Shown here: piece by piece, positions 4,779 to 37,106 of the stretch
Layout of the letters: each line of letters opens with the position of its first letter
How positions within the stretch are numbered: position 1 is the first letter of the stretch
NCBI RefSeq assembly: GCF_036013525.1
Contig: NZ_CP107853.1
Coordinates: 6,696,001-6,760,000, forward strand
From: Nonomuraea sp. NBC_00507
Lineage (GTDB): Bacteria; Actinomycetota; Actinomycetes; Streptosporangiales; Streptosporangiaceae
Length of the DNA: 64,000 nt
Reading direction: 5' to 3'
The notes under the pieces: model-generated
The model's input: only the letters and a program-made list of their open reading frames with translations
Told to the model about the DNA's origin: nothing
The model's database searches: none
Made by a program: the position numbers and the translations under genes

Positions 4779-5261
4779 ATGTTCGACCAGATCCTGGGCC
4801 TCCCGGCCCACCCCCTGATCATCCACTTCGCCGTCGTGCTGACCCCGCTCCTCGTCGTCGCGGCCGCCGTCTACGCGCTGCTGCCGCGCTGGCGGCCGTA
4901 CGTGGCCTGGGCCGTCGTCCTGCTCTGCCTGGCGGCGCCCGCGGCCGTCTACGCGGCCAAGGAGAGCGGCGAGAGCCTCAAGGCGGCCCGCTTCGCCACC
5001 GCCGGCGGCGAGGTGGGCGCCCGCATCTCCACCCACCAGAGCTTCGCCAACCCCTTGCTGCTGTCGGTGCTCGGGCTCGCCGCCGCCGCCCTGCTGCTGG
5101 TGTACGCCACCCGCCCGGCCCGCGACTCCGTGGGCGGCGACCGGTTCGGCCGCGCCGCGACGCTGACCCTGTCGGGACTGACGCTGGCGCTGGCCGGAGT
5201 CGCCAGCTACTACGTCTTCCGCGCTGGCGACTCCGGAGCGAGAGCCGTGTGGGGGCTGTAA
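4779..5261 (+). CDS. DUF2231 integral membrane protein
   Basis: 160 residues with four predicted membrane helices (about 16-36, 42-60, 89-107, 123-145). The start FDQILGLPAHPLIIHFAVVLTPL has the HPLI(V)HFP-like signature of the DUF2231 family, whose histidines in the first helix suggest a redox or metal role; no reaction is established. ATG follows TAAGGAG with ideal spacing. It is monocistronic: the gap to rarA is about 200 bases, and the upstream gene is divergent. Confidence 0.82.
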   Translation: MFDQILGLPAHPLIIHFAVVLTPLLVVAAAVYALLPRWRPYVAWAVVLLCLAAPAAVYAAKESGESLKAARFATAGGEVGARISTHQSFANPLLLSVLGLAAAALLLVYATRPARDSVGGDRFGRAATLTLSGLTLALAGVASYYVFRAGDSGARAVWGL

Positions 5262-5284
5262 TCTCGCGTTGTGGAGAGCGTCTC

Positions 5285-5405
5285 TGACTGGCTGGGAGTG
5301 CCAATCGTGGTCGCGCCCTGGTGCCGATGTCGGCCCGTTGGTGCGCGTCCCTCCGGACGCTGGCCCACCAGGCCGGGGCCGGATGGGGGAGGGCACTCCG
5401 CGTCG
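5285..5405 (+). ncRNA. Candidate structured RNA or leader upstream of rarA
   Basis: The 202-base gap between the DUF2231 gene and rarA contains nested complementarities: GGAGTGCC (5295-5302) with GGCACTCC (5392-5399); CCTGGTG (5317-5323) with CACCAGG (5366-5372); and GCGTCC (5345-5350) with GGACGC (5355-5360). A small CCG/CGG hairpin fits inside at 5324-5333. It matches no RNA family I recognise: it lacks the tmRNA, RNase P and SRP signatures. High GC makes chance pairing likely, so confidence is low. Confidence 0.2.
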
Positions 5406-5422
5406 CCTGGGCGCGGAGCGTT

Positions 5423-5439
5423 TACAGTTCGTAACTGTA
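5423..5439 (+). promoter_or_regulatory. Inverted repeat in the rarA promoter region
   Basis: TACAGTT (5423-5429) and AACTGTA (5433-5439) are perfect 7-bp arms around CGT, about 25 bases before the rarA start, in an AT-rich patch unlike the surrounding GC-rich DNA. Size and position fit a repressor operator or a site overlapping the promoter; the regulator is unknown. Confidence 0.4.
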
Positions 5440-5463
5440 TGATTACTGTGGATCGCGAGTCAA

Positions 5464-6774
5464 GTGGATAGCCTGTTCGATTCGGCGGCTGAGGAGGCCA
5501 CCCCGCAGCCCCTCGCGGTGCGCATGCGCCCGCGCACGCTCGACGAGGTGATCGGCCAGCGGCACCTGCTCGGCCAGGGCACCCCGCTGCGGCGCCTGGT
5601 CGAGAGCGAGGCCCCCATGTCGCTGTTCCTGTGGGGCCCGCCGGGCACCGGCAAGACCACGCTCGCCTACGTCGTCTCCAACGTCACCAAGCGCCGCTTC
5701 GTCGAGGTCTCGGCCGTGTCCGCCGGCGTCAAGGACGTGCGGGCCGCCATCGACAACGCCCGCCGCGAGCTGGGCATGACCGGGCGGCAGACCGTGCTGT
5801 TCGTGGACGAGGTGCACCGCTTCAACAAGGCACAGCAGGACGCCCTGCTGCCCGCCGTGGAAAACCGCTGGGTCACCTTCATCGGGGCGACCACCGAAAA
5901 CCCGTTCTTCTCGGTCATCTCGCCGCTGCTGTCGCGCTCGCTGCTACTGACGCTGGAGTCCCTGTCCGAGGACGACATCCGCGTGGTGCTGGAGCGGGCC
6001 GTCGCCGACCCGCGCGGCCTGGACGGCCGCGTCACCCTCGCGCCCGAGGCACTGGAGCATCTCGTACGCCTCGCGGGCGGCGACGCGCGCCGGTCGCTGA
6101 CCTACCTTGAGGCTGCGGCGCTGCTGGCCGACGACGTCACGGTCGAGGTCGTGGAGAAGGCCGTCGACAAGGCCGCCGTGCGCTACGACCGGCAGGGCGA
6201 CCAGCACTACGACGTGATCAGCGCGTTCATCAAGTCGATGCGCGGCTCGGACGCCGACGCCGCACTCCACTATCTGGCCCGCATGATCGAAGCGGGCGAG
6301 GACCCGCGCTTCATCGCCCGCCGCATCGTCATCTTCGCCTCCGAGGACGTCGGCATGGCCGACCCCACCTGCCTGCAGACCGCCGTCGCCGCCGCGCAGG
6401 CAGTGCAGCTCATCGGCCTGCCCGAGGGGCAGATCAACCTGGCGCACGCCGTCATCCACTGCGCCCTGGCCCCCAAGTCCAACGCCGTCGTCAAGGCCAT
6501 CGGGGCCGCGATCGGCGACGTGCGCCGCGGCCTGATCGGCCAGGTGCCCGGCCACCTGCGCGACGCCCACTACCCAGGGGCCGCCAAGCTGGGCCACGGG
6601 GACGGCTACAAATACCCGCACGACTTCGACCACGGGCTCGTCCGCCAGGACTACGCGCCCGAGCAGGTCCGCGAGCGCCGCTACTACGAGCCGACCCGGC
6701 ACGGCGCCGAGGCCCCGGTCGCCGACCGCTGGGCCAAGATCCGCGACTTCCTGCGCGCAAAGCCGGACGCATAG
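5464..6774 (+). CDS. rarA: Replication-associated recombination protein A (AAA+ ATPase)
   Basis: 436 residues of the RarA/MgsA/WRNIP1 family, a clamp-loader-like ATPase acting at stalled forks with single-stranded DNA-binding protein. Walker [10 protein letters not shown] is at 58-66, Walker [20 protein letters not shown] near 110-128, and the sensor region is [19 protein letters not shown]. The C-terminal tetramerisation part contains [15 protein letters not shown] and YKYPHDF, both typical of the family. The start is GTG ([10 protein letters not shown]) without a strong Shine-Dalgarno, so a nearby start or leaderless translation is possible. It stands alone between the DUF2231 gene and the DUF2236 gene. 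Confidence 0.95.
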
Positions 6775-6818
6775 GTGAAAGCCGTACTAAACAGCTGTTC
6801 ACGGGGAATCACCACCGT

Positions 6819-7757
6819 GTGAAGGCGACCGTTACCTCCGGTGGCGGCCTGTTCGGCCCCACATCGATCACCTGGCGCATCCACACCGAGCCGCTCGCCT
6901 TGCCGGCGGTGCTGCGCGCCTTCCAGCTGCAGGCCCTTCATCCCCGCACCATCCGCGGCATCGCCCAGAACTGTCTGCTCGACGACCCCGAGGTGGCCCG
7001 CGAACGGCTGCGGCGGCAGCTCGCCTACCTCACGGTGCGCACGTTCGGCACCCGCGAGCAGGCCGAGCAGGCCGCCGAGCGGGTGCGCCGCGTGCACGCC
7101 CGCCTCATCGGCCTCGACACCGACACCGGCACTCTGTTCCGGGTGGACGACGAGGAGAACCTGCGGTGGGTCCACTGCGTGGAGACCTCCTCGCACCTGG
7201 AGGTGGCTCTGCGCGCCGGCGTGCCGCTCACCGGCGCGGAAGCCGACGCCTATGTGGCCGAGCAGCGGCGCAGCGCGAGTCTCGTCGGGCTGCGGGACGT
7301 GCCGGGCGACGTGCCGGAGCTGCGCGATTACCTCGAGGGCATGCGCCCGTACCTGTCGGCCACCGACGAGGCGCGCGACGCGCTGCGCCGCAGCCTCAGC
7401 CCGCAACTGTCATTGCGCATTCTGTGTCTATGGTCGCGCTCGCACGGGGCTCCGCTGGTCACGCAAGCTGCCGCTCTCCGCCCCAAGCTCGCCGCTCCGC
7501 TACTGACAGCGCCGCTGGCGCTCGGCTCGCTGCCCGCCGCGGGCGCCCTCGCCTTCGCCACGCTGCCCGAGTGGGCCAAGGAGATGTACGGCTGTCACGC
7601 GGGCAAGGCCACCGAGTACGCGGCCGGCACGGCGCTCAAGGCGTTGCGCGTGGCGGCGGCCGCCCTGCCGGATCGGCTGGTCGCGCCGGAGATCAGAGCG
7701 GCCCGCGGGCTCATGCGCGCGCTCGCGGGCGCGCCGGGAGCGGACGTGGCGGCCTGA
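6819..7757 (+). CDS. Oxygenase MpaB family protein (DUF2236)
   Basis: 312 residues of the DUF2236/MpaB/latex-clearing-protein-like family, alpha-helical proteins of which some bind haem b. Visible family features are FGPTSITWRIHTEPLALPAVL at the N-terminus, the LQALHP motif, the VHCVETSS stretch near 120 and the YGCHAG-like C-terminal region. Histidines in LQALHP and the WVH motif are candidate haem ligands. The substrate is unknown. GTG start at 6819 (GTG at 6817 is out of frame). The gene is followed closely by the DUF948-DUF6167-alaS set, but an apparent new promoter precedes those. Confidence 0.75.
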   Translation: MKATVTSGGGLFGPTSITWRIHTEPLALPAVLRAFQLQALHPRTIRGIAQNCLLDDPEVARERLRRQLAYLTVRTFGTREQAEQAAERVRRVHARLIGLDTDTGTLFRVDDEENLRWVHCVETSSHLEVALRAGVPLTGAEADAYVAEQRRSASLVGLRDVPGDVPELRDYLEGMRPYLSATDEARDALRRSLSPQLSLRILCLWSRSHGAPLVTQAAALRPKLAAPLLTAPLALGSLPAAGALAFATLPEWAKEMYGCHAGKATEYAAGTALKALRVAAAALPDRLVAPEIRAARGLMRALAGAPGADVAA

Positions 7758-32025: not shown

Positions 32026-32090
32026 TCTCTGCCGAAGATATTGACAATTAAACCGTCGAGGTCTGTCGTTCGCCATAGGAGGTGAACGGC

Positions 32091-32909
32091 ATGAACGAAT
32101 GGGATGCCACCTCGTACGCGGGCAAGGACACCATCCTGCGGGTCGTCAGGGACGAGGCCGATCGGCTGTTCGCGCTGGCCGAACCGGAGGAGGCATGGGA
32201 GGCGCCGACCGCCTGCCCAGGCTGGACGACGCGGGACGTGGTCGCGCACATCGTCGACACGACCGAGGGATACTTCGCCGCGTTCGACGCGGCCCGCCGT
32301 GGCCAGGACTTCGGCACGGCGTACGGGCTGCCCGGCATGGGCGATCGGGTCAACGAGCAGGCCGTGGCGCTGCGCGGGATCCCGCAGAAGGAGCTGCTCG
32401 ACCGGCTCAAGACGGACTTCGAGCACATGCAGGCGATCCTGCGCGAGCTCGGCGAGGACGAATGGGCCGGGCTCACCGTCCCGCACTTCTACATGGGGCC
32501 GCTGCCCGCGTACTTCTACGCGGCAGGCCAGCTCATGGACTACGCCGTGCACTCCTGGGACATCCGGCAGGGGACCGGACGGGCGCACGGGCTGTCGGGG
32601 GAGGCGGCCGATCTGCTGGTGCCGTTCATGTTCGTGCTCTGGCAGTCCACGATCAGGAAGGAGGCGGACCTGACGACGCCGTTCGAGCTCGGCATCCGGG
32701 TGGGCGGGGTCAACGGCGGGGACTTCCGCGTGTCGGTGGGGACGGGCGGGATGACGTACGAGCAGGGTGACCTGGGCGGGTTGCCGACCGTCCTCGAGTT
32801 CGACGCGGGGAGCATGGTGCTCACGACGTTCGGGCGCAGCAACGCCGGCACCGTCAGGGGCGACCTGGCGATCGCCGACCGTTACCTGAACCTGTTCTTC
32901 CGCATCTAG
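32091..32909 (+). CDS. Maleylpyruvate isomerase/mycothiol-dependent family protein (DinB-like)
   Basis: 272 residues. The N-terminal DinB-like four-helix domain contains CPGWTTRDVVAHIVDTTEGYF, typical of the mycothiol-dependent maleylpyruvate isomerase family; histidine His61 of AHIV and those in the HSWDIR stretch are metal-ligand candidates. A C-terminal domain follows. The substrate is unknown. ATG 32091 is preferred: AGGAGG (32077-32082) is 8 bases upstream, whereas the in-frame GTG at 32082 lies inside it. TTGACA at 32041-32046 may be the -35 box, though no matching -10 is clear. Confidence 0.85.
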   Translation: MNEWDATSYAGKDTILRVVRDEADRLFALAEPEEAWEAPTACPGWTTRDVVAHIVDTTEGYFAAFDAARRGQDFGTAYGLPGMGDRVNEQAVALRGIPQKELLDRLKTDFEHMQAILRELGEDEWAGLTVPHFYMGPLPAYFYAAGQLMDYAVHSWDIRQGTGRAHGLSGEAADLLVPFMFVLWQSTIRKEADLTTPFELGIRVGGVNGGDFRVSVGTGGMTYEQGDLGGLPTVLEFDAGSMVLTTFGRSNAGTVRGDLAIADRYLNLFFRI

Positions 32910-32916
32910 AGCCGCG

Positions 32917-32942
32917 GGCCGCCGGTACGTATGCCGGCGGCC
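32917..32942 (+). terminator. Terminator after the mycothiol-dependent enzyme gene
   Basis: GGCCGCCGG (32917-32925) pairs with CCGGCGGCC (32934-32942) around an 8-base loop and can extend past a one-base bulge. It separates this gene from the kinase-Thg1 cassette that begins 34 bases later. Confidence 0.6.
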
Positions 32943-32950
32943 GCGTGCCG

Positions 32951-32970
32951 TTACGGTTGGCCCGTAATGT
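32951..32970 (+). promoter_or_regulatory. Inverted repeat and -10 box of the kinase-Thg1 cassette
   Basis: TTACGG (32951-32956) and CCGTAA (32962-32967) form a perfect 6-bp inverted repeat with a 5-base spacer. TAATGT (32965-32970) overlaps the right arm and lies six bases before the ATG, the spacing of a leaderless promoter. The repeat could be an operator that blocks this promoter. Confidence 0.4.
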
Positions 32971-32976
32971 GGGGTG

Positions 32977-33441
32977 ATGACAGATCGGGAAGTGGCCGTT
33001 CTCATCGGCCTGCAGGCTTCCGGTAAATCCGCCTTCTACCGGCGATGCCTGGCCTCCACTCATGCCCATGTGACCAAGGACGATTTCCCCAACGCGCGGC
33101 ACCGGCAGCGCCGCCAGCTCCGTCTGATCCGTGAGGCGCTGGAGGAGGATCGGAAGGTGGCGGTCGACAACACCAATCCTTCGCCCGAGGAGTGGCGGCC
33201 GTTGATCGTGGCCGGGCGGGAGCACGGGGCGCGGGTGGTGGCCTATTGGTTCCCGCCGAACCTGAAGGGATCCCTCCAGCGCAACGCGGAACGGCTCGGC
33301 CGGGCGCGTGTGCCGGAGGTGGGCGTCTTCTCGACGTTCAGGCGGCTGCGGCGCCCCCGGGTGGCCGACGGGTTTGACGAGGTGTCCGTGGTGGAGTTCG
33401 ACGGGCGCGGCGGCTTTCTCGTGCGGAGGGAGGAGGGATGA
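32977..33441 (+). CDS. PNKP-like polynucleotide 5'-kinase (AAA_33 P-loop kinase)
   Basis: 154 residues of P-loop kinase fold. Walker A is GLQASGKS (11-18). TKDDF (33-37) matches the acidic pair that activates the 5'-OH in T4 and human polynucleotide kinases. VDNTNP (63-68) and the end pattern RVPEVGVFSTFRRLRRPRVA followed by DGFDEV resemble the kinase domain of human PNKP. It would phosphorylate a nucleic acid 5'-OH using ATP. The phosphatase domain of PNKP is absent. ATG 32977 is chosen over GTG 32974. The stop overlaps the Thg1 ATG (ATGA), so both are made together. A small-molecule kinase of the same fold cannot be excluded. Confidence 0.75.
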   Translation: MTDREVAVLIGLQASGKSAFYRRCLASTHAHVTKDDFPNARHRQRRQLRLIREALEEDRKVAVDNTNPSPEEWRPLIVAGREHGARVVAYWFPPNLKGSLQRNAERLGRARVPEVGVFSTFRRLRRPRVADGFDEVSVVEFDGRGGFLVRREEG

Positions 33442-34187
33442 GGGTCGACCGGTTGGAGGCGGGGATGCGGGCGCGGGAGTGGTTTCACTCGCTGACGCTG
33501 CTGCCCGGTGCGTGGGCGATCGTGCGGGTGGATGGGCGCGCATTCTCCCGCTACACGGAAGGCCGCTTCGACAAGCCTTTCGACGTGCGCTTCCGCGAGT
33601 TGATGGCAGTCGCGGCGCGGAGCCTGCTGGAGGAGTTCCAGGGGTGTTACGCCTATGCGCAGAGCGATGAGATCTCCCTCGTGCTGCCTCCCTCCTTTGA
33701 CCTGTTCGGGCGGGAGGCGGAAAAGCTGGTGTCGATCTCGGCAGGCGTGGCGTCGGCGGCCTTCACGCACGCGGCGGGCGAGCCGGTGCATTTCGACAGC
33801 AGGGTCTGGCTGGGCAGCTCGGTGGAGGACGTCGTCGATTACATGTCGTGGCGGCAGGCCGACGCCGCCAGATGCGCACTGAACGGCTGGTGCTACTGGA
33901 CCTTGCGCAGGGACGGCAGGACGGCGCGGCAGGCCGGCAAGCTGCTCGAACACACCACGGTCGCCGACAAGAACGAGCTGCTGTTCCAGCACGGCGTGAA
34001 CTTCAACGAGCTGCCTGCCTGGCAGCGCCGCGGCATCGCCTTGTGGTGGGAGACGCACGACCATCAGGGGCACGACCCCATCCGCGGCGTGGACGTGGTC
34101 ACCCAGCGGCGGCGGGTGCACGTGGAGTGGGATCTGCCCATGAAGGACGACTACCGGCGGCTCGTGGAGCGGCTGGTCACCGGCTGA
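33438..34187 (+). CDS. Thg1-like 3'-5' RNA nucleotidyltransferase
   Basis: 249 residues. VRVDGRAFSRYTEGRFDKPFD (starting near 30, Asp32) and YAQSDEISLVL (Asp77, Glu78) give the three metal-binding acids of Thg1/Thg1-like proteins; the N-terminus DRLEAGMRAREWF matches the family's DLGDRMKxYE start. These enzymes adenylylate an RNA 5'-monophosphate and then add nucleotides in the 3'-5' direction; bacterial Thg1-like members repair tRNA 5' ends rather than only adding G-1. The length is normal. The start is in the ATGA overlap with a GGAGGG site unusually close. Coupling to a 5'-kinase suggests RNA end repair. Confidence 0.9.
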   Translation: MRVDRLEAGMRAREWFHSLTLLPGAWAIVRVDGRAFSRYTEGRFDKPFDVRFRELMAVAARSLLEEFQGCYAYAQSDEISLVLPPSFDLFGREAEKLVSISAGVASAAFTHAAGEPVHFDSRVWLGSSVEDVVDYMSWRQADAARCALNGWCYWTLRRDGRTARQAGKLLEHTTVADKNELLFQHGVNFNELPAWQRRGIALWWETHDHQGHDPIRGVDVVTQRRRVHVEWDLPMKDDYRRLVERLVTG

Positions 34188-34220
34188 CCGCCGGCAGCGG
34201 TCGCGGAGCTCGCTCAGCGC

Positions 34221-35630
34221 TCACCCCAGGTCGTGCCCTCCGGCCGCCGGCAGCTGGTGCTTGGCCACGCGCGCGGTGGGCGTCCGAGGCAGGGCGTCCA
34301 GCCGCTGCCAGAACCTCGGCACCTTGTACGGAGCCAGCCGCGCGGCCGTCCAGTCACGCAGGGCCGCCAGGTCCAGTTCGCGCCCAGGGGCCGCGACCAC
34401 GAACGCCTTCACCTCCTCGTCCGTCAGCTCGGACGGGACCCCGATCACCGCGCATTCCAGCACGTCGGGGTGGGCTTCCAGGGTCTCCTCGACCTCCAGG
34501 GGCGAGAGGTTCTCGCCGCGGCGCCGGATGACCTCCTTTTTGCGGGCCACGAACGTGTAGGTGCCGTCGGGGTTGGCCGTCACCAGGTCTCCGGTGTGCA
34601 GCCAGCCGTCCTTGACGGCCCTGGCGGTTTCATCGGGCATGCCCCAGTATCCGGGGGTCACGGCGGGGTTGTGCAGGAGCAGCTCGCCGTCCTCCGCCAC
34701 CCGCGCGTGGTTGATCGTGCCCAGCGTCGGGTGCTGGCGCGGGGTGCCGAGCGTCTCGTACGGTCGGGCGCCGCGGGGCCAGATCAGCCCGTACGGGGTC
34801 TCCGACAGGGCGTAGCCGACGACGATCTCCAGGCCGAAGCGGCGCTCGATCTCCAGCTGCCGTTCGCGGGCCGGAGCCGGGCCCGTGTAGCAGAGCTTGA
34901 GCGGGTTGTCGGCGTCGTCCGGCCTTTCCGGCTGCCGCATGAGGATCTCCAGCATGGCGCCGATCGCGTTGAACTCGGTGGCGCCGTACCGCCGGGCGTC
35001 GTCCAGGAAGGAGCCGGCCGAGAAGCGGGGCAGGAGGACCAGGCCGGCGCCGCAGGACAGCGAGCCCATGACCGAGTAGGCCGGGGCGTTGATGTGGAAC
35101 AGCGGCAGCGACGTCATCAGGCGGTCCGCGCCGGTCAGGCCGAGCCAGTGGGCGAAGCCCTGGCCGGCCAGCGCATACGCCCGATGGGTCTGCATGACCA
35201 GCTTGGAGCGGCCGGTCGTGCCCGAGGTGGGGATGAGAACGGCCAGGTCGTCCGGCCGCACCAGGTCCGTCGGCAGCTCGGCGGGCTCCGGCCACGGGCC
35301 GGGGTCACGGATGACGTGGGCCGGTTTCGCCTGCTCGATGAGGGCGTTGAGCTCGTGGTCGGTGCTGCGGGGGTTCACCGGGAGCGTGACGGCGCCCAGC
35401 GTCGTCAGCGCGAGCCAGCAGATCAGGTCGCGCGGCGTCGTCCTGGCCACGAGCATGACGACGTCGCCGTGCCGCACGCCCCGCGCGGCCAGGGCCTGCG
35501 CCTCGCCGCCCACCAGGGCGGCGGCCTCGGCGAACGTGATCATCGAGTCGCCGTGCAACCAAGGGCCGTCACAGCAGGCGGCGGCGAGCACCTGCGGGAT
35601 CGTAGCCGGGAGCGATCCGGGAGTCGTCAA
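34221..35630 (-). CDS. AMP-forming acyl/aryl-CoA ligase
   Basis: 469 residues, shorter than FadD types. The P-loop-like motif is VLIPTSGTTGRSKLVM (near 131-146); GYALSETPYGLIWP is the adenine motif; GWLHTGDLVTANPDGTYTFVARKKEVIRRRGENLSP is the hinge region; the catalytic Lys region is PRTPTARVAKHQLP near the C-terminus. It forms a CoA thioester from an unknown acid. The ATG is within the four-base overlap with the upstream VOC gene (35627-35630), so the two are co-translated and probably share a pathway, perhaps breakdown of an aromatic or fatty acid. Confidence 0.88.
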   Translation of the reverse strand: MTTPGSLPATIPQVLAAACCDGPWLHGDSMITFAEAAALVGGEAQALAARGVRHGDVVMLVARTTPRDLICWLALTTLGAVTLPVNPRSTDHELNALIEQAKPAHVIRDPGPWPEPAELPTDLVRPDDLAVLIPTSGTTGRSKLVMQTHRAYALAGQGFAHWLGLTGADRLMTSLPLFHINAPAYSVMGSLSCGAGLVLLPRFSAGSFLDDARRYGATEFNAIGAMLEILMRQPERPDDADNPLKLCYTGPAPARERQLEIERRFGLEIVVGYALSETPYGLIWPRGARPYETLGTPRQHPTLGTINHARVAEDGELLLHNPAVTPGYWGMPDETARAVKDGWLHTGDLVTANPDGTYTFVARKKEVIRRRGENLSPLEVEETLEAHPDVLECAVIGVPSELTDEEVKAFVVAAPGRELDLAALRDWTAARLAPYKVPRFWQRLDALPRTPTARVAKHQLPAAGGHDLG

Positions 35631-36232
35631 GGCTCCAGTGTGATCCCTTCGCGCCTGAGGTCCTCGATGATGCCGTCCACCAGGCGGGTGGCGACCGTGT
35701 GGCGCAGCTCGCCGTGGTCACGCAACTCGCGCACGGCGGGAACGGGATCCGGGTCGGCGAACAGCCGCTCATCGGCGTAGTCCACCGGCCGGCCGGTCGG
35801 GTCGATGGTCCACCAGGACGCCTCCAGCGCGATGCCGTTGGGGTCGCTAAAGTAGATCGACCGCAGGAACCCGTGGTCGATGACGTCAGTGACCTCGCAC
35901 CCATGCGCCTTGAGCCGGTCGCGCATCCGGTTGAGCGCGTCCTCGTCCGGCAGGTGCAGCGACAGGTGATCGAACTGCGCCGCCTTGGCGTACGGCACGC
36001 CCGCGGGCTTGGCGAAGCTGTCGAGGGGCTGGTCGGCGTATTCGAAGAAGGCGACGGTGTTGCCCGGCGCCACCTCGAAGAAGTAGTGCTTGAACGAGGG
36101 CACGGCAAGAGTGGTGACCAGGCGGGCGCCGAGCACACCGTGCCAGAACCGCACGGTGGCGTCCATGTCCGCGGTCACCAGGGCGAGATGGTGCACGCCG
36201 CGCCAGTGCACCGGATCTGGGGTCGCAGCCAT
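35627..36232 (-). CDS. VOC-superfamily dioxygenase/glyoxalase-like protein
   Basis: 201 residues with two beta-alpha-beta-beta-beta modules. VHHLALVTADMDATVRFWHGVLG opens the first, FDHLSLHLPDEDALNRMRDRL the second, and FSDPNGIALEAS holds the last metal ligand; the likely set is His14 or His15, the His of FDH and the Glu of ALEAS, as in extradiol dioxygenases and glyoxalases. A C-terminal tail of about 55 residues has no known domain. It is the first gene of a two-gene unit with the CoA ligase, suggesting an aromatic ring-opening or isomerase role. Confidence 0.82.
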   Translation of the reverse strand: MAATPDPVHWRGVHHLALVTADMDATVRFWHGVLGARLVTTLAVPSFKHYFFEVAPGNTVAFFEYADQPLDSFAKPAGVPYAKAAQFDHLSLHLPDEDALNRMRDRLKAHGCEVTDVIDHGFLRSIYFSDPNGIALEASWWTIDPTGRPVDYADERLFADPDPVPAVRELRDHGELRHTVATRLVDGIIEDLRREGITLEP

Positions 36233-36284
36233 GCGTCAACCGTACGCCTTTCAACTATCCCTGGTAAGTGAGGACTACCTGCCC

Positions 36285-37106
36285 TCAGCCCTTCACCGAG
36301 CCGGCGAAGCTGAAGGAGCCGGCCAGGTATTTGTTGACCGCGACGTAGAGGACCACGGCCGGGGAGGTGTAGAGGATGGAGAAGGCGGCCAGCTGACCGT
36401 AGGCGACCTGGCCGTACTCGGAGAAGAACGTGAAGACGGTGACCGCGGCCGGCTGCTTCTCCGGGGTGTCGAGCAGGACGAACGGGGCGAAGAAGTTGCC
36501 CCACTGGCCGACGAAGACGAAGATCGCGACGACGGCGATGCCCGGGGCCATCAGCGGGCCGACGACGGCCGTCAGGGAACGGATCCAGCCGGCCCCGTCG
36601 ACCCAGGCCGCCTCCTCCAGGTTCACCGGCACGCCGTCCATGAAGTTCTTCATCATCCAGATGGAGAACGGCAGCGAGCTCGCCGTCAGGAACAACACCA
36701 TCGCCGGGACGGAGCCGTACAGGTTGAAGCGGAAGAACATCGCGTAGACCGGCACCAGGATCGCGGTCACCGGCAGCCCGGTGGTGAACAGCAGGGTCAG
36801 CATGAAGTGGCGGCGGTAGCGCAGCTGGTAACGCGACAGCGGGTACGCCGCCAGGCCAGACACCAGGACGGTCAGGATCGCCGTCGAACCCGAGATGACG
36901 ATCGAGTTGATCAGCGGAAGGATGATCGTCTCCCAGGTCAGGACGGCTTTGAAGTTGTCCAGGGAGAAGGTGAGCGTGGGCGTGGCGGACAGGGTGGCCT
37001 CCGGCTGGACCGAGGCGATCAGCACCCACAGGAACGGCCCCAGGAAGGCCAGGGCGATGAGCAGCAGGGCCAGCACCGCCGCGCCCCTCGCGGCCAGCCG
37101 CGTCAT
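36285..37106 (-). CDS. Carbohydrate ABC transporter permease (MalG/LacG type)
   Basis: 273 residues with six predicted membrane helices and the cytoplasmic EAA loop EEAAWVDGAGWIRSLTAVVGPLMAP that docks to the ATPase. It belongs to the binding-protein-dependent permease family of sugar importers. ATG is within the ATGA overlap with the partner permease upstream (37103-37106), which fixes the start and excludes the longer open frame. It is the last gene of the operon; no ATPase gene follows, so a shared MsiK-like ATPase is likely. Confidence 0.92.
   Translation of the reverse strand: MTRLAARGAAVLALLLIALAFLGPFLWVLIASVQPEATLSATPTLTFSLDNFKAVLTWETIILPLINSIVISGSTAILTVLVSGLAAYPLSRYQLRYRRHFMLTLLFTTGLPVTAILVPVYAMFFRFNLYGSVPAMVLFLTASSLPFSIWMMKNFMDGVPVNLEEAAWVDGAGWIRSLTAVVGPLMAPGIAVVAIFVFVGQWGNFFAPFVLLDTPEKQPAAVTVFTFFSEYGQVAYGQLAAFSILYTSPAVVLYVAVNKYLAGSFSFAGSVKG

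Follow-up and report, generated by a model that had tools for sequence, protein, structure and literature searches.

Two overlapping genes of the actinomycete Nonomuraea sp. NBC_00507, whose genome comprises 12.9 Mb on 2 contigs, raise the question of whether a small kinase and a Thg1-like 3'-5' polymerase (TLP) act together to repair RNA 5' ends. We examined them within a stretch of 64,000 nucleotides (the window; contig NZ_CP107853.1, positions 6,696,001 to 6,760,000). A first-pass annotation had proposed this joint role and had regarded the pairing, to its knowledge, as not described in detail. The latter view does not stand, since the pairing was published in 2010, in a study whose authors we take to be Anantharaman, Iyer and Aravind. 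In the parts of that study consulted (PMC2904730), a PNK-family kinase is the most persistent association of bacterial Thg1, and the abstract puts this kinase forward as a possible source of the 5'-phosphate used by Thg1. Because both the pairing and the mechanism are given there, the central idea of the annotation was already known. Judging from sequence, the Nonomuraea genes are a real and conserved pair, plausible in RNA 5'-end repair, and a well-supported further example of the 2010 prediction.

The kinase and the polymerase

Both open reading frames were confirmed on the + strand, overlapping by ATGA as first annotated. A promoter scan with the sigma-70 consensus as its sole model found none. 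The features of the pair are as follows:

32977..33441, + strand: kinase gene, PNK-type P-loop kinase (AAA_33), 154 aa, from the open reading frame with Pfam and structure matches; start at ATG 32977, with GTG 32974 as a possible alternative
33007..33030, + strand: Walker A motif GLQASGKS, residues 11-18; G11, G16 and K17 in 56/56 paired kinases
33079..33081, + strand: D35 in TKDDF, in 56/56, aligned with the Asp of PNKP NRDT
33166..33180, + strand: DNTNP, residues 64-68 (within VDNTNP), common to the DNTNP of PNKP; D64-N67 in 56/56, P68 in 54/56
33280..33294, + strand: RNxxR, with R102 and R106, in 56/56 paired kinases
33438..33441, + strand: ATGA start/stop overlap of the kinase and TLP genes
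33438..34187, + strand: TLP gene, Thg1-like 3'-5' polymerase, 249 aa, from the open reading frame with Pfam and structure matches
33531..33533, + strand: D32 of the TLP, metal-binding acid, in 83/84 loci with one gap
33666..33671, + strand: D77-E78 of the TLP, metal-binding acids, in 84/84 loci
33795..33803, + strand: D120-S-R122 of the TLP; D120 in 83/84 loci, R122 in 84/84

The kinase matched Pfam AAA_33 (E = 2.9e-13) and, in NCBIfam, PNK-3'Pase (2e-5), PSTK (7.6e-5) and bacter_Pnkp (0.0015), all far under their cut-offs; at 16.8 bits against a cut-off of 750, it falls outside the Pnkp model TIGR04075. A single-sequence search of solved structures returned five matches, all of them PNKP (E ~2e-6), in chains that we take to be mammalian. 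When a profile built from 32 relatives was used instead, 14 matches were obtained, led by the mammalian PNKP kinase domain (E = 2.4e-13). Second, at 1.4e-9, came a chain of 171 residues deposited under the name 'Metallophosphoesterase', presumably the Clostridium Pnkp kinase domain. The P-loop protein 9drz (1.9e-7) and an L-seryl-tRNA(Sec) kinase (7e-5) followed, then Pnkp1 (0.002) and a fungal 'kinase', 9d8a (0.004). A cyanobacterial relative of the kinase found the same two leading structures among its 16 matches, which include repeat proteins without any stretch that passes alone. PNKP kinase domains therefore lead over other P-loop kinases, placing the protein by similarity among the PNKs. 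A small-metabolite kinase was considered and set aside: no solved-structure match at E ≤ 0.01 carries such a name, the names of 9drz and 9d8a being uninformative on substrate. The nearest named homologues come from Nonomuraea.

The motifs first noted in the kinase (Walker A, TKDDF and VDNTNP) are present at residues 11-18, D35 and D64-P68. Across all 56 paired kinases, invariant residues are G11, G16, K17, K34, D35, R46, Q47, D64, N65, T66, N67, R102, N103, R106, V112, P113, P127 and F133. By analogy with PNKs, we take D35 to be a candidate general base, and R102 and R106 to be candidate lid arginines. The PNK motif set of Walker A, Asp, DNTN and RNxxR is thus present, as in the PNKP kinase domain and T4 Pnk, from which the kinase differs in having no phosphatase domain. 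T4 Pnk also carries an Arg three residues after its general-base Asp, whereas the kinase has Pro there; this position is P in 38, R in 14 and G in 4 of the 56 pairs, and the T4-type Arg is also missing from PNKP in the alignment.

The TLP scored 101.5 bits against Pfam Thg1 (cut-off 29.2, E = 4.2e-29) and 62.1 bits against Thg1C (cut-off 26.3, E = 7.4e-17), and matched six TLP/Thg1 sequences among solved structures (best E = 3.9e-32). Pfam and structure matches thus bear out the family assignments of both proteins, and the Asp32/Asp77/Glu78 acids named in the first-pass annotation were found in place. The TLP gene is 99% identical in Nonomuraea sp. G32. The eukaryotic HINNLYN motif is missing: the HINNLYN of the Thg1 in structure 3otb, which we presume to be human, aligns with ARCALNG. 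That motif reads the anticodon in eukaryotes (PMC6471195), and bacterial and archaeal TLPs, according to the portions consulted of the work on Bacillus thuringiensis TLP (PMC3701042) and of the same review, likewise combine the Thg1 palm with Thg1C and D/D/E acids and have no HINNLYN. We provisionally take D120-S-R122 as the DxR signature that the consulted part of PMC2904730 ties to the initial adenylating reaction.

Distribution of the gene pair

We scanned genome contigs and kept the best 80 of 94 relatives as TLP loci; the scan required peptide patterns of this TLP subfamily, to which its coverage of Thg1s is confined. A kinase counted as adjacent when it lay ≤400 bp upstream of the TLP on the same strand. 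It was found directly upstream at 53 of the 79 assessable genome loci and was absent at 26, with 1 further locus cut. Adding the window and three loci on plasmids (one of which, L090, was retrieved via its kinase) brings the set to 84 loci: 56 with the kinase, 27 without and 1 cut. Pairs occur in Actinomycetota, Cyanobacteriota, Myxococcota, Planctomycetota, Acidobacteriota, Abditibacteriota and Vulcanimicrobiota, and on a plasmid in Deinococcota, giving eight phyla with the plasmid locus counted. A quick TLP tree with a midpoint root placed pairs on deep branches and implied at least 13 gain or loss changes of the pairing.

Because the adjacency recurs at 56 of 84 loci, and the matched stretches of the loci examined are free of internal stops, this is not a chance pair of reading frames. 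The adjacency is far from chance, and it agrees with the arrangement of PMC2904730 in that a PNK-family kinase adjoins Thg1 across lineages. The genes themselves, their family membership, their catalytic residues and their conserved adjacency are directly established. Distances between kinases correlated with those between TLPs (r = 0.83 for the 56 pairs and 0.82 for 29 genus labels), but the correlation is not corrected for species relatedness, and we therefore give co-evolution little weight.

No third conserved partner gene was found at a fixed place beyond closely related species, except RlaP in three loci, in a neighbour scan based on mechanical ORFs, among which antisense ORFs cluster too, and with part of the neighbours family-scanned. 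In Spongiactinospora (L008, L009 and L042), a TLP without an adjacent kinase is directly followed by an ORF that looks NUDIX-like by eye; its product could in principle trim a 5'-pyrophosphate, or its presence may be chance in one genus. Loci labelled Rhodococcus rhodnii and Actinosynnema have the TLP and surroundings of the Kibdelosporangium loci (L046 and L047 with L041, L045, L053 and L068), and the record labels may be wrong.

The check set by the first-pass annotation, conserved adjacency in related genomes, gave a mixed outcome: the pair is kept in one close Nonomuraea genome and across many other genera and phyla, but not throughout the genus. Thg1 was found in 5 of 59 genomes in a sample of relatives, the window's own included; the other four all belong to the same genus and have no kinase within ~1.5 kb on either side, and two of them carry a divergent Thg1 type. 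In a sample of the phylum, Thg1 was present in 2 of 396 genomes and the kinase in 10 of 396 (E ≤ 1e-25), each count including the window's own genome. None of the nine other kinase-bearing genomes had a complete Thg1: eight gave no match, and one had broken pieces beside the kinase. At locus L134 (genome G185), a kinase is followed by broken Thg1 pieces, as if the TLP gene had decayed while the kinase was retained. Since Thg1 is absent from most sampled relatives, it is not essential there.

We also searched the 27 genomes of the loci with the kinase absent or cut for homologues elsewhere, scoring ≤117 candidates per genome. Three have a close homologue (>200 bits; 219-228); among the other 24, the best match was a domain within a frame 867-1447 aa long in 20 genomes and a 166 aa frame in one, and three gave no match. 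All ten long-frame kinase-like matches that were checked, nine from those genomes and one from a relative, proved to be Pnkp. A Streptantibioticus plasmid carries the kinase with no Thg1 nearby.

The surroundings of the pair in the window and its relatives are described by three further features:

32082..32909, + strand: MDMPI_N family gene, outside the unit, 67 bp 5' of the kinase gene and of an unrelated family
32910..34220, no strand: segment that genome G058 (L144) lacks between these two flanking genes, taken as the extent of the two-gene unit
34221..35630, - strand: AMP-binding ligase gene, outside the unit, convergent and downstream

Because the MDMPI_N gene lies 67 bp away on the same strand, co-transcription with the kinase is possible; this gene was found in 8 of the 59 relatives, own genome included. 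The junctions were compared in L139-L141 and L144 (the sequences of L142 and L143 stop short of this point, and L145 was left out). In L139-L141, DNA similarity runs up to 32909 and resumes at 35626-36285, with the pair and the AMP-ligase gene missing. In L144, from a more distant genome, the MDMPI and AMP-ligase genes adjoin with <50 bp between them and no pair. As its flanks join without it in a relative, the pair behaves as a compact unit, and it probably came or went in one compact block. With one neighbour of an unrelated family, the other convergent and both able to join without the pair, the earlier impression of no other close partners was broadly right.

Copies also occur on mobile elements. 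Among 72,556 plasmid records, Thg1 was found in 21 and the kinase in 5, the two being adjacent in 2 (Embleya and Deinococcus). Among 50,697 named phages, 122 had Thg1 and none matched the kinase; five phage regions were inspected, and in one of them, from KashFlow, a gene annotated as polynucleotide kinase lies downstream of Thg1 at a distance of four genes. In IMG/VR we found seven kinase loci, two of them weak, with Thg1 adjacent in four, two in each order. Five of the seven records were searched whole for Thg1, and four of these five contain it. Thg1 precedes the kinase, the opposite of the bacterial order, in L150 (4250-5495) and L152 (4222-5462). The record of 273,563 bp (L154) encodes a phage major head protein (1.8e-40) and is jumbo-phage-like; at 4962-7345 it has the kinase, a TLP copy with D32 and D77 replaced, and then an intact TLP copy, possibly a structural and a catalytic partner judging from these residues. 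Sampling proteins from the remaining three records with a pair yielded an endonuclease match for one of them and, for another, L153, a strong match to phrog_14837 (PHROG, function unknown); the rest had weak or no matches, and the viral identity of these records is the database label. No PADLOC family matched the kinase or the TLP at E ≤ 0.01.

RNA repair context and competing explanations

Bacterial Pnkp-Hen1 is an RNA repair system, and the Nonomuraea genome contains it (Pnkp at 1307 bits), together with a tandem RlaP pair and one weak RlaP match. The same genome has a further PNK-like P-loop domain in a 595 aa frame (G000:C1:4038904-4039296; L123/L126). Pnkp resembles the kinase described here in bringing a 5'-end kinase to an RNA repair system of the same genome, but it is one large protein (an 851-position model) rather than a stand-alone kinase of 154 aa. 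Of the 77 TLP-bearing genomes, the only ones counted, 65 have Pnkp at E ≤ 1e-100, and in 64 it exceeds the family cut-off; of the 53 loci with the kinase, three from Amycolatopsis (L039, L048 and L056) were left out of this count. The idea that the kinase is needed only where Pnkp is absent was discarded, as Pnkp occurs in 42 of 50 genomes with an adjacent kinase and in 23 of 27 with the kinase absent or cut.

Several loci place the TLP beside other RNA repair genes. A Deinococcus taeanensis plasmid (L088, 5525-10784) carries the kinase-TLP pair, DUF705, Hen1 and two RlaP genes in an RNA repair island of ~5.3 kb. The order RlaP-TLP-RlaP, with no adjacent kinase, is found in Phormidium sp. LEGE 05292 (L067, 2271-4812). 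On a Thiodictyon plasmid (L089, 6022-12750), the TLP is followed by RlaP, and the opposite strand has a helicase ~2 kb and a BREX brxD gene ~4 kb downstream. In a same-genus relative (L004), a divergent Thg1 type has an RNA_ligase (PF09414) gene upstream in the same orientation, matching the ligase association of the 2010 paper.

On balance, we favor as fairly probable a two-gene RNA 5'-end repair unit in which the kinase phosphorylates a 5'-OH and the TLP rebuilds from a template. A ribonuclease would leave a 5'-OH RNA end, onto which the kinase, judging from its family, would move the gamma-phosphate of ATP. By analogy with other TLPs, the polymerase would adenylylate the resulting 5'-monophosphate and then add nucleotides 3'-to-5' against the opposite stem strand, restoring the truncated 5' end. 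The earlier premise that Thg1 chemistry needs a 5'-monophosphate is supported for TLP activation in the portions of PMC6471195 consulted. Coupling in an operon would supply both steps together, and the substrate would most likely be tRNA; we infer the RNA substrate, the order of the steps and the cellular role of the pair. The kinase domain that Pnkp in the same genome already carries and the Pro in place of the T4-type Arg count against the repair unit. The absence of the kinase at 26 of 79 loci, together with the kinase-only genomes and the Streptantibioticus plasmid, counts against it as well and argues against strict coupling.

A wider reading, which we consider improbable, assigns the healing and filling of the 5' side of an RNA gap to the kinase and TLP, the filling of its 3' side to RlaP, and marking and sealing to Hen1-Pnkp; the pair would then form one arm, the 5' one, of a larger pathway whose genes are in part unlinked. 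The presence of Hen1-Pnkp and tandem RlaP in the Nonomuraea genome is consistent with this, as are the Deinococcus island, the Phormidium and Thiodictyon arrangements, the relative in which a different type of Thg1 lies close to an RNA ligase gene, and the occurrence of Pnkp in 65 of 77 TLP-bearing genomes. However, RlaP or Hen1 was physically linked to the TLP at 3 of 84 loci, with part of the neighbours family-scanned, and Pnkp is frequent in these actinomycetes, so that its count, which has no background frequency beside it, is only suggestive of a joint pathway. If a ligase acted afterwards, the 5'-triphosphate left by the TLP would first have to be trimmed; yeast Thg1 can remove pyrophosphate, though less efficiently at Watson-Crick paired ends, in the consulted part of PMC6471195.

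The remaining explanations fare worse than the two-gene repair unit. That the two genes are passengers, with the kinase acting on a small metabolite and an adjacency that is merely historical, would fit the nine kinase-bearing genomes of the phylum sample without a complete Thg1, but the adjacency persists in eight phyla amid otherwise different neighbours, viral contigs have both gene orders, and the structure matches named no small-metabolite kinase; we judge this reading quite unlikely.

We hold it very unlikely that the pair serves tRNA-His, with the TLP keeping or restoring G-1 opposite C73 and the kinase rescuing 5'-OH tRNA-His. In vitro, TLPs are able to place G-1 opposite C73, according to the consulted part of PMC6471195. 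By our reading of the sequence, however, the tRNA-His gene found by a pattern search, which would miss a divergent second copy, encodes G at -1 and C73, so that maturation of this tRNA is not an obvious need, and we rejected it as the role of the pair; the missing HINNLYN and the sparse occurrence of Thg1 (5/59 relatives and 2/396 phylum genomes) count against it as well. Equally hard to credit is a toxin-antitoxin-type conflict module with a nucleotidyltransferase-like RNA toxin and a controlling kinase, which would suit a compact, overlapping and sporadic pair that one relative lacks between the flanking genes, that has copies on plasmids and viral contigs, and whose kinase belongs to a family in which 2 of 32 AAA_33 members weakly match Zeta_toxin, but which is opposed by the occurrence of each gene without the other as neighbour, the fully conserved catalytic sites, the RNA-repair context of 2010 and the lack of a PADLOC match.

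Relation to earlier work and implications

The closest precedent, in the parts of PMC2904730 consulted, is a Thg1 gene beside a PNK-family P-loop kinase with the same proposed chemistry; some of its operons add MACRO or RNA ligase genes, neither of which is adjacent to the Nonomuraea pair. It also reports Thg1 in mimivirus and a Pseudomonas phage, and the same parts contain no RlaP/Hen1 islands and no virus-borne kinase-Thg1 pairs. In the TLP review (PMC6471195), the words 'kinase' and 'operon' occur nowhere in the main text. Jumbo phages carry polynucleotide kinases, RlaP, RNA ligases and, sporadically, Thg1 (PMC7824862), but the consulted part of that work does not describe Thg1 and kinase as one gene pair. 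In our searches of the open-licence PMC literature, we recognised no experiment on the kinase-Thg1 pair and found neither a kinase-TLP-Hen1-RlaP island nor a virus-borne kinase-Thg1 pair. More speculatively, and with considerable doubt, the pair could be the 5' gap filler, alongside RlaP on the 3' side and Hen1-Pnkp as sealer, of a counter-defence against tRNA-cleaving immunity that moves between bacteria and travels on phages, among them the jumbo-phage-like record L154 with its intact TLP and its TLP paralogue short of two catalytic acids.

The in vivo role of bacterial TLPs is still open according to the consulted part of PMC6471195. A compact, co-expressible kinase-TLP pair makes the 2010 prediction testable, and its RlaP/Hen1 and phage settings point to the partners and stresses worth trying. 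The question it poses is whether 5'-OH RNA left by an RNase is made fit for 3'-5' polymerisation by a dedicated 5'-kinase.
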